From positions 10,104 through 74,103 of the forward strand of contig CACWKS010000003.1 of NCBI GenBank assembly GCA_902761535.1: DNA of 64,000 bases. Reading direction: 5' to 3'. This DNA comes from an uncultured Pseudomonadota bacterium. GTDB lineage: Bacteria; Pseudomonadota; Alphaproteobacteria; RF32; CAG-239. Position numbers and translations under genes: made by a program. Below the pieces are notes generated by a model. It made no database searches and was not told the origin of the DNA. It saw nothing but the letters and a program-made list of their open reading frames with translations. Every line of letters begins with the position of its first letter. The stretch's first letter is position 1. Shown here one piece after another: positions 35-9,257 of the stretch.

Positions 35-112
35 ATTTAAAAATTCGTAGCCCCCTTATTCGCCTCATTTCAATCGGCTCAGGGGTGACAAGTATATCGG
101 AAGGAGGGTGTT

Positions 113-1897
113 ATGGCAGTTAACATAACATTGACCTCCTCGATGCGGAGCAACTTGTGTGCGTTGAAGAATCTCACCACCCAGATGAACAAGACGCAGA
201 ACAGGTTAGCAACCGGATTGAAAGTAAACACAGCAATTGACAATGCCAGCAGTTATTATCAGGCACGTGCGCTTAATAATCGAGCGAGCGATTTGGATGC
301 TTTGTTAGACAGTATGGGACAGAGCATACAAATCATAAACACAGCGATAAAAGGATTAGAAAAATCGGGAGAGATGCTGGAGCAAGCGGCGGTGATAGCC
401 GAGCAAGCCTATGAGGCCGCAATTATACCGGAGAAAGCATGGTTTGAAGCCCAAGTCGGACCGAACGGTGCGGTTGTATCAACAGCACAAGAATTGAAAG
501 ATGCGGTAAACTCTGGCAAAGAAACGATTTGTGTGTATGGTAAGATTGATTATTTTGAAGATCAAACTTTGACTATGAAAGCCAATCAAAAATTAGTGGG
601 AACCGAATATTTTACCGGCTACACTGGCAACAAGAAATTCTCGGAAATTAATTTTAAGGGAACGCAACAAAATGCTATAAATACGGGTGAAAATAGCTTA
701 ATTTCTGATTTATGTTTAAATTTTGAGAGTAATAGTTTAACAACTTCAAATTTTATAGCGGCTAGTTCTGTTGAGAAAGTTTATTTAATAAACCTTGATA
801 TCAATCATAATGTTTATAGCTCCATTAATGGAAATTTGCAGGGAGTTATTAAATCTATTGATAATGCGAAAATAAATGTAGGGGGAATAGTAAATATTAA
901 TAGTTTAGGTGCAAGATCTGGATTTGCTTTAGATAATTCTGCGCAACTGACCATAGATGAAAATGCTAAAGTAAATATAATATGCAAAGATACTACTTGG
1001 GGAATGGCATTAGTCTATAATAATTCAGCTATTAATATATATGGTAAATTAAATGCTATGACAGATTATTATTGTATTTTGGGAAATAAAACGAATGGCG
1101 GTGCACAATTAAATATTTACAAAGATGCTGAATTAACAATAAAACATCTTTATGTAAGACTGGGTAAGAGTAATGAAGATATTTATAATAAAATTGATAT
1201 AGAAGAAGGTGCAAAAATTAATATAAATGACAGCAAAGGAAAAGTTTATTTATTAAGTCGTGGTTATCAATATACTAATAGTACTGATTCTAATGTTAAT
1301 ATTTATTCTACGACTTTAAAAAATAGTAACAAATTTAAATCTTATAGTGCTGTTATAAATTGGGATAATTTTGCTAATACTGAGGTGGACGAGGCAGAAG
1401 ATGAAAAAGTTTTAGCACAAAGCTTTGAGCAATACGGCACGATGATGAATTCGTTTGATGAGATAGTTGAAGAGAGCAGTTATTTGGGAGTTAATTTGTT
1501 GACCGGCGGGGCAATGACAACAATATTCAATGAAAATCGAGATCATAGTTTTGTGGTACAAGGCGAAGATATGAGAGCCGAGAGTTTAGGAATTACGATG
1601 AGAGAGTGGAACACACGCGAAGACATAGCAGCAAGCATTAAAGAGATAAAAGCGGCGATGGGCAAAGTTCGCGATATGGTAGAAAGTTTAGGTAATAATT
1701 TGAGCATAATTCAGACGAGAGAAAACTTCACCGACAAGCTGATAGATGTTTTACAGACCGGAGCTGATGATCTGGTTTTGGCAGATATGAATGAGGAATC
1801 GGCGAATTATCTCGCCTTGCAAACCCGCAACAATTTAGCGGTTAATGCTTTGGCTTTGACCGCACAAAGTGGAAATGCCGTATTAAAACTATTCTAA
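113..1897 (+). CDS. Flagellin with beta-helix-like variable domain
   Basis: Filament subunit exported by the flagellar type III system. Residues 1-105 have the heptad-rich flagellin N-terminus (RLATGLKVNTAIDNASS), and about 430-594 form the matching C-terminal D1/D0 part ending QTRNNLAVNALALTAQSGNAVLKLF-like. Between them, about residues 118-425 are not a normal flagellin D2/D3. They begin with STAQELKDAV and continue with many short strands of the type INIYGK, LNIYKDAELTI, KIDIEEGAKINI, as in right-handed beta-helix (pectate lyase-like) folds. This block is much richer in A+T than both ends. The start is supported by AAGGAGGG at 101-108. No other flagellar gene is in the window. Flagellin identity is firm; the beta-helix reading rests on strand pattern only. 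Confidence 0.88.
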   Translation: MAVNITLTSSMRSNLCALKNLTTQMNKTQNRLATGLKVNTAIDNASSYYQARALNNRASDLDALLDSMGQSIQIINTAIKGLEKSGEMLEQAAVIAEQAYEAAIIPEKAWFEAQVGPNGAVVSTAQELKDAVNSGKETICVYGKIDYFEDQTLTMKANQKLVGTEYFTGYTGNKKFSEINFKGTQQNAINTGENSLISDLCLNFESNSLTTSNFIAASSVEKVYLINLDINHNVYSSINGNLQGVIKSIDNAKINVGGIVNINSLGARSGFALDNSAQLTIDENAKVNIICKDTTWGMALVYNNSAINIYGKLNAMTDYYCILGNKTNGGAQLNIYKDAELTIKHLYVRLGKSNEDIYNKIDIEEGAKININDSKGKVYLLSRGYQYTNSTDSNVNIYSTTLKNSNKFKSYSAVINWDNFANTEVDEAEDEKVLAQSFEQYGTMMNSFDEIVEESSYLGVNLLTGGAMTTIFNENRDHSFVVQGEDMRAESLGITMREWNTREDIAASIKEIKAAMGKVRDMVESLGNNLSIIQTRENFTDKLIDVLQTGADDLVLADMNEESANYLALQTRNNLAVNALALTAQSGNAVLKLF

Positions 1898-3051: not shown

Positions 3052-6000
3052 TTAGGGTATTTCCATCATTTGGGCGGTATTAGTCCATAAGATACATGTG
3101 GTGATTTTTTTGTCAGGGTATATTTCAGAAATTAACTTTTTATAGGCTTTTAACTGTTTGATGTAGCTTAAAGGAACGTCGGCCAAATTCTTAGCAGCGG
3201 GACGATTGGTTTTGTAGTCAATGATCATGACTTCTTGCGGAAGAATGACTAATCGATCGATTTGTCCGGATATTACACGATTATCAACTTTACCCATGAC
3301 AGATACTTCAGAAAGACAATTATGAGAGAATATATCGGAAAATTGCGGAGAATTTACAAGGCGTAAAACTTCGCCAATAATTTTTTCTTGTTCCTGCGGC
3401 GAAAAATCTGTTCCTTGCTTATTAATATATGTGCGAATTATTTTTTCGCGTTCGGATGAATTGCGGGCGGGTAAAAATTGCAACAGTTTATGAATAAGAT
3501 TGCCGCGGGCATAAAGCTTTGCGTTGTTTGTTGATGATAATGGTGATAGTGCAGATATATTTTGCTCATCAAGATGTGACGGGGTTAAGGGTTTTGACAA
3601 AGGAGTTTCTGTTTTGGGATTATTATTAACCCAAGGAGCAGAAATAGGAGAATGCGAGCTATTGTCAGAGATTTTGTTCGGACTGAGATTTGTTAAAGAT
3701 TTAATGTCGTAAACAAAATTTCCGGAGGAGTCAGCGTTTGATATTTTACTTAAGCTTTGTTTGCATATTTCATACCAGGAATTTTCGTTGGGAGAATTTT
3801 TGCCGGTATAGCCGCAAATGAAAAGTTGTTCGCCGGCACGAGTAAGGGCAACATACAGCAATCGATTATATTCTTCTATAATGGAATTTTGTTGTTTGTT
3901 TTGCAATTGGATACATTTTTCATCGTAATAATCCTTGCCTAAAGGATATAGCAAAGAATTATCATCTTTTTGCCAGCCGGCTTCCTGTTTGGCAGTTTTG
4001 AAACGTACAGTATCAGGAAGAATAACTACCGGAGCTTGAAGGCCTTTAGAACCGTGTACGGTCATAAGGCGGACAGCGTCAATGTTATTTTGTTCTAAGC
4101 TGCGTTTTATTTCCATATCATCGCTATCCATCCATTCAACGAATGTTTGTAAAGTTGGTATTCGTTCTTGTTCAAAAGATAAAGTTAAATTAATAAATTC
4201 ATCGAGAGCATCTTCACATTCCATACTTAAACGAGCGATAAATTTACGACGCCCTTGAAGATTGTTCAGTATATAACTGAAAAATTCAAAAGGACGAATA
4301 TTGCCGGACATAGCATAAAGATTTTGTAATATTAAGCAAGTAGAAGCAAAAGATGGATTTTGTTGTAATTGTTGCCATACGGAATTATTGCCGCGTTGAT
4401 AACATAATTGGAAAAGGTCGTCATCATTATGTCCGAAAAGAGGAGATTTGAGCAAGCAACAAAGATTTAAATCATCGTCGGGAAGTAAAACAAAACGAGC
4501 TGCCGACATTAAATCCATTACTACAATTTGTTCATTAAGATTGATTTTATCAATACCGGTAATGTTAACATTGGCATTTTTGCAGGCTCGAACCATTTCT
4601 TCAGCAAAAGAATTACGTCTTTGAATTAAAATTAAAAAATCGCTGTAACGCAGAGGAGTTCCGTCAGCTTTGAGTTCATGAGAAGTTACTTTGTGATGGA
4701 TTAATTCGGCAATTTTTTGGGCTAAAACCGATGAAGCTGATTGGACGGTCAGACGCTCAACAGGGGGGAGCCATATATCATCTGAAGTGTTTTCCGAATG
4801 CGGATAGGTTAATTCCCAAAGTTCAACATGTCCACATTCACCAATTCGTGAGGGAATGTGATGGATATTTTGATGCGGAGAAACTACACCTTTTATGGCA
4901 GATGAGTCGGTAAAAACGGTGTTTACCATATCTAATACGGCTGAAGTTGAACGAAATGAAGTTTCCATGTTAACGGTTTGAAAATTAGGTGTTGATGCGG
5001 CAAAATAATCATGCATTTTCTCAAATGCTTTGACATCAGCACCTTGGAATGAATAGATTGATTGTTTGCGGTCGCCTACGACAAAAACGGTGGGTGATAG
5101 AGATTTGCTGCCGTTACCGGCAAAAAATTCTTTTGACAATGCTTGGATGATTGACCATTGTTCAGGTGATGTGTCCTGCGCTTCATCAATTAGAATGTGG
5201 TCAATGCCGCCATCAAGTTTGTAAAGTACCCAATCAGCCACCTGAGGAGAGTGTAGTAATTGAGAAGTTTTGGTAATTAAATCATTGTAGTCCATTTTGG
5301 ATTTTGCAGTTTTGGCTTGGCGATATCTTTCGATTATTTCACGAGCCAGTGTCAGCACGGCAGTTGTGGCATCTCGCAAATTGATGCTGCGCAATGATTG
5401 ATTGCAAGCGATTGTGCGATTACATTCGTTAAGATAAATTTGAGACGCATCGGGAAAAAGTTCTTGAGATTTTTTTACCAGAAAATTTTTTTGGGGAGAA
5501 TCTTTTTGAGTCAGCAAAATAGAATGATAGGCTTCAAAATCTTGGGCAATAACGGCATCTTGTAATTGTTGGCCGATTGTTTGAGATTTCGGTGTTCCTG
5601 CATCAAGGGCTTGTAATAGGATTTGTATGTTATTTTGAGGTAAATCTTCCCAAAATTGTTTTAGTAGTGATGAAGCAGTTAAATTTTCGGGCAGATTTAA
5701 TGTTAAGGATATATGATTTAAGGCCTGCTTAAAATCAGGAAATGAGTTAAAATAACTTTCCAGCATATTACAATTATCGGTTATTGACGATAAAATTTTA
5801 GGAAAGGAATATTCGCTGCAATTAGCGGCAAGATAGCTTAATGCTGATATCAGATTGTCAGGAGGAAAGTTTAAAATATCTTGTTTTATTTGGGTTAAAG
5901 TTTCCTGAGTTTCGCGGTCATCCATAACCTCAAAATAGGGTGATATTTTAGCTTCTAAAGGAAAACGTTTGAGAATTTCTTGGCAAAAGCTGTGAATGGT

Positions 6001-6378
6001 TTGAATTTTTATCCCATCAGGTGTGTCGAGTACTAAAGCAAATAATCGACGGGCTTGTGCCATAGAATCGATGTCGGCAGGCAGTTTTTGTAATTCTTTT
6101 ATCAATTCTTTATCGTCAATTACAGCCCATTGAGAAAGTTTGTCAAGTATGCGGTTGTTCATTTCTGAGGCGGCGGCTTTAGTATAAGTCAGGCATAATA
6201 TACGAGAAGGATTTGCTCCTTCAAGCAAAAGACGTAATACGCGATCTGATAATACTTTGGTTTTACCACTGCCGGCAGAAGCTTCTACCCATATTGATTT
6301 TGAGGGATCTGAAGCGTTTTGTTGTTGCGATGAAGCTAAAGCTATAAGATGTTCTTTTTGGGCTTTTAGATCTGTCAA
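3052..6378 (-). CDS. addA: AddA, helicase-nuclease subunit A
   Basis: Large subunit of the AddAB helicase-nuclease that resects double-strand ends for RecA recombination. About 1108 residues, normal for alphaproteobacterial AddA. UvrD-type motifs are clear: Walker A ASAGSGKT near residue 36, LIDEAQDTSPEQW (Walker B), VVGDRKQSIYSFQGAD, and MTVHGSKGLQAPVVILPD. The C-terminus has the RecB-like nuclease motif GQIDRLVI...MIIDYKTNRP. The start appears to be TTG at 6376-6378, overlapping the TGA stop of addB as TTGA with AAGGAGAT upstream, so translation is probably coupled. Confidence 0.95.
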   Translation of the reverse strand: MTDLKAQKEHLIALASSQQQNASDPSKSIWVEASAGSGKTKVLSDRVLRLLLEGANPSRILCLTYTKAAASEMNNRILDKLSQWAVIDDKELIKELQKLPADIDSMAQARRLFALVLDTPDGIKIQTIHSFCQEILKRFPLEAKISPYFEVMDDRETQETLTQIKQDILNFPPDNLISALSYLAANCSEYSFPKILSSITDNCNMLESYFNSFPDFKQALNHISLTLNLPENLTASSLLKQFWEDLPQNNIQILLQALDAGTPKSQTIGQQLQDAVIAQDFEAYHSILLTQKDSPQKNFLVKKSQELFPDASQIYLNECNRTIACNQSLRSINLRDATTAVLTLAREIIERYRQAKTAKSKMDYNDLITKTSQLLHSPQVADWVLYKLDGGIDHILIDEAQDTSPEQWSIIQALSKEFFAGNGSKSLSPTVFVVGDRKQSIYSFQGADVKAFEKMHDYFAASTPNFQTVNMETSFRSTSAVLDMVNTVFTDSSAIKGVVSPHQNIHHIPSRIGECGHVELWELTYPHSENTSDDIWLPPVERLTVQSASSVLAQKIAELIHHKVTSHELKADGTPLRYSDFLILIQRRNSFAEEMVRACKNANVNITGIDKINLNEQIVVMDLMSAARFVLLPDDDLNLCCLLKSPLFGHNDDDLFQLCYQRGNNSVWQQLQQNPSFASTCLILQNLYAMSGNIRPFEFFSYILNNLQGRRKFIARLSMECEDALDEFINLTLSFEQERIPTLQTFVEWMDSDDMEIKRSLEQNNIDAVRLMTVHGSKGLQAPVVILPDTVRFKTAKQEAGWQKDDNSLLYPLGKDYYDEKCIQLQNKQQNSIIEEYNRLLYVALTRAGEQLFICGYTGKNSPNENSWYEICKQSLSKISNADSSGNFVYDIKSLTNLSPNKISDNSSHSPISAPWVNNNPKTETPLSKPLTPSHLDEQNISALSPLSSTNNAKLYARGNLIHKLLQFLPARNSSEREKIIRTYINKQGTDFSPQEQEKIIGEVLRLVNSPQFSDIFSHNCLSEVSVMGKVDNRVISGQIDRLVILPQEVMIIDYKTNRPAAKNLADVPLSYIKQLKAYKKLISEIYPDKKITTCILWTNTAQMMEIP

Positions 6379-9257
6379 TTGTCATCTCCTTCATCTTTAA
6401 CCGACCATTCTTTGACGCGGGCTAAGTGTTCATAATCGGAATATTCAGGAACGTGTTTGGGATTAGGACGACTTAAATAACCGGTTTCAACATGGGCAAA
6501 AAGATTAATTATTTCGATAAGATGTTCTTTGGTTTTGTCAAGCAATTGCTCTAAATTATCGGTAATACTAACGATTTTATCACCTAATTTCCAATACATA
6601 AGTCGGTTAATTTCTGCGGGTGGCAGGTTTGTAAATCCACCTGTTTGGGCGATAAGTGCTTCAATGGGGAGTTGAGGAGCATAGCCGGCTTTTACTTCTT
6701 TGGCAGAACGAGCTCGACCGGTTTTATAATCTATAATATTATATTTTTTATCATAAGTCAGATCTATACGGTCAGCTTTGGCATAAATTTCGAACGTTCC
6801 CATGAGGGTATTTTCTAAGAACAGTTTGCCCCATATTTCGCTATGGATATGAGCTATTTGTTGACGATAATTTTTCTCTTGAGCAATAATCCATTCAATT
6901 ATTTGTTTAAATTTCGGCAGCCAAAATGTAGTTTTTTCGGCGGAAAAATCCGCTTGTTGAAAAGCGACATCGCCCATTGATAAGAGTATCTCTTCGGCGT
7001 TTTCCGGAAGTTGTTCGGGGTATTTGCGAGCAAAATCGTTAAGGACCTGATGAACTAAATTACCGAAATCAGATTGGTCAGCGGTGGTATCTAATTCATC
7101 AAGAGGTTTTAATTGCAAAATATATTCGGCAAATACACTATATGGATCACGCAAGAGCTTTTCAAATGCAGTTGCCGAAAGTTTGTGAGGACGGGCATCT
7201 AAAGGAGGGTGCGGATTGGGCGGTAACAATTTAATGATTTCAGATGGCTGAGGTTGATCGATATATTGACATAATTGAGTGTAATAAGTATCTTGAAGTC
7301 GGATTATATCTATATTTAAGGCTTGCAGAACCGTAGTGAGACGAAGCCACCAACGCGATTTTAGAGTTTGGGCACCGTCGTTCATTTGACTACGAGAAAG
7401 GTAGACAGTTTCAGCACCCAATAAATTAGAAAAATCAAGAGCCGATACTCCGATTTGTTGTTCAGGTTGATTAAGCCCGAAATCGCGTTTCATCGGACGC
7501 GACATCCAAGGGTCATTTTCCGGTGACTGCGGCCAAATTCCTTCGTTACATCCTCCGATAACAATTATATCATAGTGATTTAAGCGAGCTTCCAGAGAAC
7601 CGAGAATTTTTATTCTGGGATGTGTTGCAACAGAGTTGCGGACAGTAATGCCACTCATAAGTTTTTCAAGAAGGCTTATATAATCCTCAGGTGTTACGGT
7701 ATCTATGAGATTAGATTTATCTAATAGTTCAGCAATAAAATCAGCACCGGCTTTGCCATCGTCATTTTGCCAAAGAGTTAATTGTCGAGAGGATGTCTGG
7801 CCGCTTAATTTTTCGCAGATACTTATGTGTTGTTGTAACAAGTCGCCAAAGGCAACCGAAGGTTGATTTAAAAGCTCGGTAAGAGGTTGGATAGTTTCAA
7901 GTATCGAATCTAAAAAGTTTTGAGCTTCATTATCAGATTGTTTAAGGCGCCATATGATTTTATCCACTTTTTCGGCATCGGCTCGATTATTTTTACAAGC
8001 ATCATATAAAAAACAATTTTTAAGCAGAGCTAAACAAATCGGTTTTGATGACGGGTTCATGGCTGCTGAAGCGACCAAGCGTATAAATATTCCCCAAGGG
8101 GATAAAGACAAAGGAATTCCGGCAGAATCGTCAACACTTATATTCCAACGACGAAGTTCTCCACATACGCGACGGGCTAAATTACGATCCTGAGTGACCA
8201 AAGCAATGGTTTTATTCGGGGATTCAAGGGTATGACGGATTAACAGAGCAATACTGAGAGCTTCTTCGCGAATATCGTTGCATTCCATAAGATGAAGACC
8301 TGTTATGGCATCAGTGGTTATTGAATTATTTAAATTACGCCATAAATGTGACATTTGAGCAGGACGCATAATTTCACTGATGAGTTTTTCGCGCATAATG
8401 TTTTGAGGAGGAACTAAATCAACTATTTGCGAGCGATTTAATTGCAGAAAATCCAACAATTGTTTGAGCTCGTATTGCGGGTGGGATTCATCAATACATT
8501 CCCAAGCATCATTGTCTAAAAATTTATCCAGACCGGCTAAATAAATTTCTCCGTTAGGTAGATGAAAAACAGTATTGACTAATTCTTTCATAATGGGTGA
8601 TACGGCTGTGGTTCCGGCAATAATTATTCTTTGGTCGGTCGGATTAGCTTGCCATATTTCACATTGTTTACGCATTAACAAATTGCGCCGGGTAACGGTA
8701 TCAACAACTGATTGTTCATCCAGTATTTTGGGCCAGTAGTGAGTGAGAATAGTTAAAAATTTGATGGTTTCTTGCCAATGAATAGCATATTCGTCAGGTA
8801 TGATTTTTTCTAAATTGCTCCAATCAAGATTGTGAAGAGAAACATTATCGAGCAGATTTCCCAGTGTGCCGGCTAATTCACAAGCCTGAGAAATGGTTAT
8901 AGCTGTCAGACCAAATTCTTGGTATCGTTTCGTGATGAGTTTGGTGAGGAGTAAGGTTCTTTCTAAAGGGGATATAGCTCTGGGAATATTCAGGGAATCG
9001 GTGTAACTTTGCGGGTTAACAAGTAGTATTTCATCTTCGTTGATATCTCCGATGGCACGCATTTGCGGCAATAACATCGGCTCCATGCCTTTTAAGCGTA
9101 CGAAAGCATCGGCTAAAGAACGGCAAGCACGGCGGTTAGGCAATAAAATTAAGATATCAACCAAGGATTGGTGGTCATCTGTGCAGTCATTTAGCAGTTT
9201 TTGAGCCAGAGTGTCGACAAAGCAACAAGATGAAGAAATGTTATAGATTTTTGCCAT
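6375..9257 (-). CDS. addB: AddB, nuclease subunit B
   Basis: Partner of AddA in double-strand break repair, about 960 residues. It has the inactivated helicase-like body typical of AddB (LLPNRRACRSLADAF, VIGGCNEGIWPQ) and a C-terminal PD-(D/E)XK nuclease with DRIDLTYDKKYNIIDYKTGRA. No intact Walker A is visible, as in alphaproteobacterial AddB. The longest frame starts at 9266, but the only GGA upstream is 2 nt from that ATG and better placed for the ATG at 9257 (MAKIYNIS). It overlaps the end of rdgB, within the operon glgA-rph-rdgB-addB-addA. Confidence 0.93.
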   Translation of the reverse strand: MAKIYNISSSCCFVDTLAQKLLNDCTDDHQSLVDILILLPNRRACRSLADAFVRLKGMEPMLLPQMRAIGDINEDEILLVNPQSYTDSLNIPRAISPLERTLLLTKLITKRYQEFGLTAITISQACELAGTLGNLLDNVSLHNLDWSNLEKIIPDEYAIHWQETIKFLTILTHYWPKILDEQSVVDTVTRRNLLMRKQCEIWQANPTDQRIIIAGTTAVSPIMKELVNTVFHLPNGEIYLAGLDKFLDNDAWECIDESHPQYELKQLLDFLQLNRSQIVDLVPPQNIMREKLISEIMRPAQMSHLWRNLNNSITTDAITGLHLMECNDIREEALSIALLIRHTLESPNKTIALVTQDRNLARRVCGELRRWNISVDDSAGIPLSLSPWGIFIRLVASAAMNPSSKPICLALLKNCFLYDACKNNRADAEKVDKIIWRLKQSDNEAQNFLDSILETIQPLTELLNQPSVAFGDLLQQHISICEKLSGQTSSRQLTLWQNDDGKAGADFIAELLDKSNLIDTVTPEDYISLLEKLMSGITVRNSVATHPRIKILGSLEARLNHYDIIVIGGCNEGIWPQSPENDPWMSRPMKRDFGLNQPEQQIGVSALDFSNLLGAETVYLSRSQMNDGAQTLKSRWWLRLTTVLQALNIDIIRLQDTYYTQLCQYIDQPQPSEIIKLLPPNPHPPLDARPHKLSATAFEKLLRDPYSVFAEYILQLKPLDELDTTADQSDFGNLVHQVLNDFARKYPEQLPENAEEILLSMGDVAFQQADFSAEKTTFWLPKFKQIIEWIIAQEKNYRQQIAHIHSEIWGKLFLENTLMGTFEIYAKADRIDLTYDKKYNIIDYKTGRARSAKEVKAGYAPQLPIEALIAQTGGFTNLPPAEINRLMYWKLGDKIVSITDNLEQLLDKTKEHLIEIINLFAHVETGYLSRPNPKHVPEYSDYEHLARVKEWSVKDEGDDN

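Follow-up and report, generated by a model that had tools for sequence, protein, structure and literature searches.

The flagellin encoded at the start of the window (the whole stretch of 64,000 nucleotides analysed here, from an uncultured Pseudomonadota bacterium, an alphaproteobacterium of ruminant-gut type) is probably a filament-forming protein whose D1 domain carries a pectate-lyase-like adhesive beta-helix between the helices ND1a and ND1b, and which belongs to a dispersed family displaying binding surfaces. Under this proposal, the two ends would form the packed part of the filament, a beta-helix would project outward from the ND1a-ND1b turn of every subunit, and its long sheet-and-groove surface would bind polysaccharide or glycoprotein at high avidity without cutting it, candidate targets being the pectin of plant fibre, mucin or the surface of another cell. 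Dispersed genes with like ends and diverging coils, if co-expressed in mixed filaments, would provide one cell with several such binding surfaces. The reading frame itself is a flagellin as judged from its homologous D0/D1 ends, and its product would be expected to be exported and polymerized. The gene is composed of the following features:

101 to 110, forward strand: ribosome-binding site AAGGAGGGTG, read off the sequence directly
113 to 1897, forward strand: flagellin gene with inserted beta-helix, 594 aa (open reading frame, Pfam matches of the ends, model)
113 to 421, forward strand: N-terminal filament core, ND0 and ND1a helices, residues 1-103 (Flagellin_N, model, near-identity among paralogs)
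422 to 607, forward strand: conserved beta-helix entry with connector, helical cap and first coil, residues 104-165 (invariant residues, model)
467 to 1342, forward strand: predicted right-handed parallel beta-helix, residues about 119-410 (AlphaFold2 and structural comparison)
608 to 1402, forward strand: hypervariable AT-rich coils, residues 166-430 (GC 0.277, GC3 0.17)
1424 to 1894, forward strand: ND1b helix, D1 beta-hairpin, CD1 and CD0 helices, residues 438-594 (alignment to FljK/L/M/N, model)

The ribosome-binding site was graded good, and a similar sequence, AAAGGAGGGGGTT, stands before relatives in genome G010. Pfam identified Flagellin_N at residues 17-99 (E 5e-9) and Flagellin_C at residues 510-594 with an E value of 0.002, under the curated cut-off. 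In the AlphaFold2 model, for which 40 related flagellins were used, the N-terminal core, which is near-identical among paralogs in several genomes, consists of helices 9-34 and 45-102, and the C-terminal part of helices 428-457, 502-559 and 561-593 with a hairpin at 467-483. Both ends match flagellins of solved structure from Caulobacter and Sinorhizobium (FljK-N, FlaA); the C-terminal part was aligned to residues ~115-272 of FljK/L/M/N, and superposition of the model on FljL resulted in an rmsd of 2.8 over 190 residues. The agreement of Pfam and of the solved alphaproteobacterial flagellins bears out the description of both terminal domains as normal in the earlier note on this sequence. The gene is solitary, with adjoining genes of non-flagellar function (a Bax1-I membrane protein, AddA- and AddB-like genes, Ham1, RNase PH and a starch-synthase-type gene), and FliF and FliG are encoded elsewhere in the 1.44-Mb genome. 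Short dispersed repeats, AAGGCATCTTCGAATT and GGCATGACAGG with their complements, lie at positions 1-42, 1927-1968, 2036-2047 and 1904-1918/2069-2083 of the window; they flank the flagellin on both sides and are also found beside other flagellin copies of the genome.

The region between the two ends had been described in the earlier note as resembling a pectate-lyase-type right-handed beta-helix over about 300 residues, for which structure prediction and fold comparison had been suggested. The AlphaFold2 model has a mean pLDDT of 78.9, with values mostly between 75 and 96 in the middle, and places a helical cap at residues 125-133; some ten rungs of short, roughly regularly spaced strands come after it and extend to residue ~410. 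The best structural matches obtained with VIA-align were the binding regions of the serine-rich repeat protein (SRRP) adhesins of Lactobacillus reuteri, 5ny0 (Z 21.0, spanning model residues 109-414) and 5nxk (Z 20.2), at an identity of 15-20%. Pectate and pectin lyases came next with Z values of 18-19 (pectate lyase A, PL1, Z 19.2), followed by tailspikes, alginate lyases and epimerases. Foldseek alone was weak, its best beta-helix match being pectate lyase A (E 0.01). The middle of the window flagellin gave no significant sequence match in Pfam, NCBIfam or PDB, and PF20585 (Pectate_lyase_5, a putative pectate lyase-like adhesive domain) did not match it at E 0.1. The same family matched the middles of four of the 40 relatives (best E 1.2e-6) and, below the cut-off, a sister flagellin in genome G016, so that the link of the window gene to pectate lyases is drawn from its predicted structure together with the PF20585 matches of its relatives. 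A second model was obtained for a flagellin of another species (L147 in G010), whose coils are about 18% identical to those of its own sister gene; it matched pectate lyase A with Z 16.2 and the SRRP region with Z 15.9, and was confident for only about half of the middle, the second half being poor. Taken as predictions, these data support a pectate-lyase-type parallel beta-helix fold for the window middle, with three-sheet coils forming one continuous domain. The early interpretation of the fold is thus upheld, as a usual D2/D3 flagellin domain was not obtained, and the borders then proposed (residues 118-425) were correct to within about 15 residues.

The location of the block has to be revised, however. 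It had been regarded as lying in place of the variable domain, but in the model it sits after residue ~103 and before residue ~428, that is, between ND1a, which ends at residue 102, and ND1b, which corresponds to the helix 428-457. Residues 13-84 of the window flagellin align to the first 85 residues of Caulobacter flagellins, and residues 443-594 align unbroken to FljL-N from about residue 119, i.e., from ND1b onward; the Flagellin_N match is interrupted at position 95 of the 139 profile positions. Given the model and the unbroken Caulobacter alignments of both flanks, we place the insert in the ND1a-ND1b turn. The usual D2/D3 slot, following ND1b and the beta-hairpin and preceding CD1, is nearly empty in the window flagellin and likewise in those of Caulobacter. 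With an insert that precedes ND1b, the protein falls outside the flagellins with a usual D2/D3 variable domain. In FlaA of S. meliloti, the variable domain is located after ND1b, and a short paralog on contig C6 of the window's genome aligns to FlaA and has its extra residues after ND1b. Two kinds of Flagellin_N match occur in the genus, those that span the full profile, mostly from frames of about 280-460 aa, and those that end near profile position 90-116, mostly from frames of about 380-860 aa. Compared with the structures aligned here, the ND1a-ND1b insertion site is unusual. The region contacted by TLR5 lies close to this turn.

A beta-helix fold alone is no proof of binding, because tailspike depolymerases, epimerases and lyases score nearly as high as the adhesins. 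The domain might instead be a filament-borne enzyme, such as a polysaccharide lyase or hydrolase, comparable to the protease flagellinolysin. Such an activity would be in line with the high structural ranking of PL1, PL6 and further lyases and hydrolases, and 61 domain families, some of them enzymatic, have been reported in the hypervariable regions of flagellins (PMC5595980). The pattern of conservation points elsewhere. Among 40 sequences, the invariant residues of the middle (A120, V122, L128, A131, I139, I145 and Q159) are all located in the entry segment, the conserved positions of the coils are hydrophobic, aromatic, small or Asn/Asp, and no conserved Lys, Arg, His or Glu was found in the coils at the 60% level. 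Two aspartates are fairly conserved, D199 (32 of 40) and D229 (28 of 40), and stand next to conserved Ser, Asn or Leu; judging by these surroundings, both look structural. Since the coils lack a conserved charged catalytic residue, adhesion fits better than lyase activity, and as the two best structural matches are binding regions and not enzymes, we regard an enzymatic role of the family as improbable, while individual beta-helix flagellins may have an active site.

Multivalent binding of glycans is favoured here because the nearest solved folds are those of gut adhesins and no conserved enzyme site is present. The earlier suggestion that a beta-helix on the filament would suit adhesion or glycan binding remains the best reading in view of the adhesin-like fold and the absence of a conserved charged catalytic residue, the binding as such being what we infer from them. 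The SRRP53608 binding region of L. reuteri binds mucin, epithelium, polygalacturonic acid and rhamnogalacturonan I (PMC6973325). It shares with the window protein the pectate-lyase-like beta-solenoid and the association with gut bacteria, but it is part of a Gram-positive serine-rich cell-surface adhesin, whereas the window domain is inserted within an alphaproteobacterial flagellin. PL1 pectate lyases (PelA/PelC), which are characterized by a conserved catalytic Arg and calcium-binding acidic residues, have the same fold and differ in that no conserved catalytic or charged site was found in the coils of the window family. Flagellinolysin carries a metallopeptidase domain in the usual flagellin hypervariable region (Eckhard 2017, PMC5595980). 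It has in common with other domain-insertion flagellins and with the window protein that normal ends surround a foreign surface domain, but its insert is a gluzincin in the usual hypervariable region, in contrast to a beta-helix at ND1a/ND1b in a family of paralogs. Pfam gave no peptidase match in the window flagellin, which is thus no flagellinolysin.

The middle had also been noted to be much richer in A+T than the ends, and this holds: with the cuts proposed at the time, GC is 0.470 at positions 113-463, 0.288 at 464-1388 and 0.415 at 1389-1897, so that the base composition is far from equal across the gene. None of 612 sampled 925-base stretches elsewhere in the window was as AT-rich (lowest GC 0.304). 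GC3 of the coils was 0.17, compared with 0.55 and 0.43 for the N- and C-terminal ends, respectively, and with 0.357 +/- 0.061 (minimum 0.253) for 34 open reading frames of the window. A coil GC of 0.334 is expected from the amino-acid composition, as against the observed 0.277; composition therefore accounts for part of the dip, and the remainder is due to synonymous sites. A lower GC3 in the coils than in the ends was found in nearly all long paralogs compared, in many species of the genus. The recurrence of this contrast indicates that the AT-richness of the coils is a lasting regional property, and we rejected low GC as the mark of a recent foreign insert for the same reason.

The window gene is one of at least two beta-helix flagellins in its genome, the other being located on contig C8 and 67% identical overall. 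The C8 paralog (L015:5059-5226 and 5166-6656) has a roughly 30-base deletion and a frameshift near the C-terminus, close to the point where contigs C4 and C14 also break, and this disruption may reflect a pseudogene or an assembly artefact at a repeat. The genome also encodes a lectin-type flagellin on C22 and the short flagellin on C6, and fragments of flagellin ends are found at the ends of contigs C4, C11, C14, C18 and C20, as would be expected if near-identical ends disrupt short-read assembly. In other species of the genus, long flagellins are mostly single genes on separate contigs, and Flagellin_N matches numbered 20 in G013, 18 in G021, 17 in G023, 16 in G012 and 15 in G020, copy numbers that are approximate given metagenome-assembled genomes (1.4-1.7 Mb). 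Paralogs within a genome of a multi-copy species often share 93-99% identity in their ends and typically 15-35% in their coils. Median identities of N end, coils and C end were 0.97, 0.35 and 0.85 in G020, 0.96, 0.18 and 0.95 in G010, and 0.97, 0.19 and 0.95 in G003. G012 was less extreme, with coils 63% identical, and the four copies compared in the window's own genome diverge more throughout.

Between the window gene and C8, dS was 0.36 in the N end, 0.55 in the C end and 1.17 in the coils; in G012 it was 0.16 and 0.31 in the ends and 0.72 in the coils. Coil values are perhaps inflated by alignment error and end values perhaps lowered by codon bias. Lower dS in the ends fits gene conversion, a process that would homogenize them, or codon constraint there. 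The coil dN/dS was roughly 0.1-0.5 in close pairs and below 1 in every closely related pair examined; diversifying selection on the coils is therefore without support, and values above 1 were not found in any close pair. Such ratios would also fit the weak constraint expected if the insert were passive and made the filament thicker as a spacer or stiffener, for instance for swimming in viscous rumen contents, and bound no ligand; the persistence of the fold despite drifting coil sequences would fit as well. A spacer, however, needs neither as many as 20 paralogs in a genome nor a retroelement acting on a sister module (see below), and the closest folds are adhesins; we consider this explanation very improbable.

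Paralogs of one species often have related 5' leaders and differing 3' flanks, a pattern that favours transcription of each copy on its own over a single expression site. In the genomes G003, G013, G020, G021 and G030, a DnaA-box-like TTATCCACA or TGTGGAAAA was observed 74-145 bases upstream of flagellin starts. It precedes most long flagellin genes of these five species at a fairly fixed distance, with about 0.05 sites expected per 220 bases, the copies being related and hence not independent. A search of the window's genome revealed no silent middle-only cassettes, the middles being located only inside the two flagellin frames, and silent donor cassettes for antigenic switching were therefore dismissed for this genome.

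In several flagellins of the genus, the middle contains a C-type-lectin-like (Lcl_C) module. One of these, a 786-aa flagellin at locus L266 on contig C2 of G016, has both an Lcl_C match and the weak PF20585 match mentioned above, and is accompanied by the following features:

3520 to 5880, reverse strand: flagellin with Lcl_C and weak Pectate_lyase_5 matches, putative retroelement target
4436 to 4554, within the flagellin: variable repeat
6160 to 6510, reverse strand: bAvd gene (PF22296, E 1.5e-16)
6434 to 7837, reverse strand: reverse transcriptase gene (RVT_1, E 3e-16)
7856 to 7974, beside the reverse transcriptase and bAvd genes: template repeat, 119 bases

Of the 15 mismatches between template and variable repeat, 13 fall on template adenines. 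By these sequence criteria, the locus is a diversity-generating retroelement aimed at a flagellin. Flagellin is named once in a published list of retroelement targets (PMC6642488), and we therefore present this locus as a lead and not as a first. In G013, variation among ten lectin-type flagellin segments (L124, L125, L127, L128, L131, L133, L134, L195, L202 and L221) is concentrated in the first two codon positions, and most of the codons concerned end in C or T; this pattern is the one predicted for an AAC/AAT template and was read as a retroelement footprint, with no reverse transcriptase found in the G013 assembly. In other species of the genus, genes for RVT_1 proteins resembling that of G016 were observed at L272:3891-5156 (G032), L273:5803-7068 (G011), L275:7041-8712 (G007, also with a bAvd gene) and L276:6247-7092 (G005). 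In the window's genome, the C22 flagellin (L016:6591-8417, 609 aa) has an Lcl_C-like middle (E 1e-4) instead of the beta-helix, with a YWSSS...VRAF segment that resembles the G016 variable repeat. No template copy for this gene was found in the genome; two weak matches to its middle on C15 fall in a protein with repeated lectin-like modules (L283:2666-6346, 1226 aa, Lcl-like modules with DNA similarity to the C22 middle). We rejected the idea that a retroelement acts on the window gene, since a search of its genome at E 1e-5 revealed no reverse transcriptase.

A retroelement directed at a sister flagellin, and paralogs of one genome with conserved ends and divergent coils, would also be expected if the coils were mainly a variable surface that helps the cell evade host antibodies, phages binding to flagella, or predators, with binding being secondary. 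Against this speak the preserved pectate-lyase scaffold and entry segment and the coil dN/dS below 1 in close pairs, and switching of one copy at a time, as in vls or pilin systems, is unsupported given many paralogs with their own leaders and no silent cassettes found in the window's genome. Immune or phage escape is the main rival to glycan binding and could act on the same coils; as the principal explanation we consider it rather unlikely. Conceivable, though less likely than not, is a wider reading in which the filaments of this family of gut Alphaproteobacteria are a variable binding array: dispersed flagellin paralogs whose packing ends are conserved would carry diverging beta-helix or lectin-like modules at a site other than D2/D3, and the lectins would be hypermutated by diversity-generating retroelements in at least one species.

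A profile search of the family revealed relatives of the beta-helix middle in 39 of 152 genomes, which represent 12 of its 16 genera. All 28 loci examined have flagellin ends in their reading frames, both ends in 27 and the C-terminal end only in one. Beyond the family, samples of the class (385 genomes) and of the phylum (398 genomes) yielded no relatives, a lineage restriction that applies within samples of the window's own phylum. Named relatives include assemblies labelled RUG and SIG57, which we take to be rumen or ruminant metagenomes.

Multiple flagellins per cell are known from Caulobacter, for which six have been described (PMC7591256). The window family resembles this alphaproteobacterial multi-flagellin set, to whose FljK-N its ends align, but the solved Caulobacter flagellins comprise about 273 aa without large outer domains, while in the window family a genome can contain up to about 20 Flagellin_N matches, and the middles of many of these proteins are large and divergent. 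Flagellins with foreign surface domains are thus known already; in the literature searched, with few subscription journals, we found no report of a beta-helix, beta-solenoid or pectate-lyase domain in a flagellin, nor of a beta-helix adhesin fold between ND1a and ND1b in a dispersed family. The earlier note, drawn from the sequence of the window alone, could not reveal that this gene belongs to a large family with like ends and different middles. Should the proposed binding be real, a single organelle would serve both motility and attachment to fibre, mucus or other cells, and the surface with which it binds would be diversified gene by gene in a gut lineage of small genome size. The shared ends and different middles across up to ~20 genes suggest filaments that show many binding surfaces.
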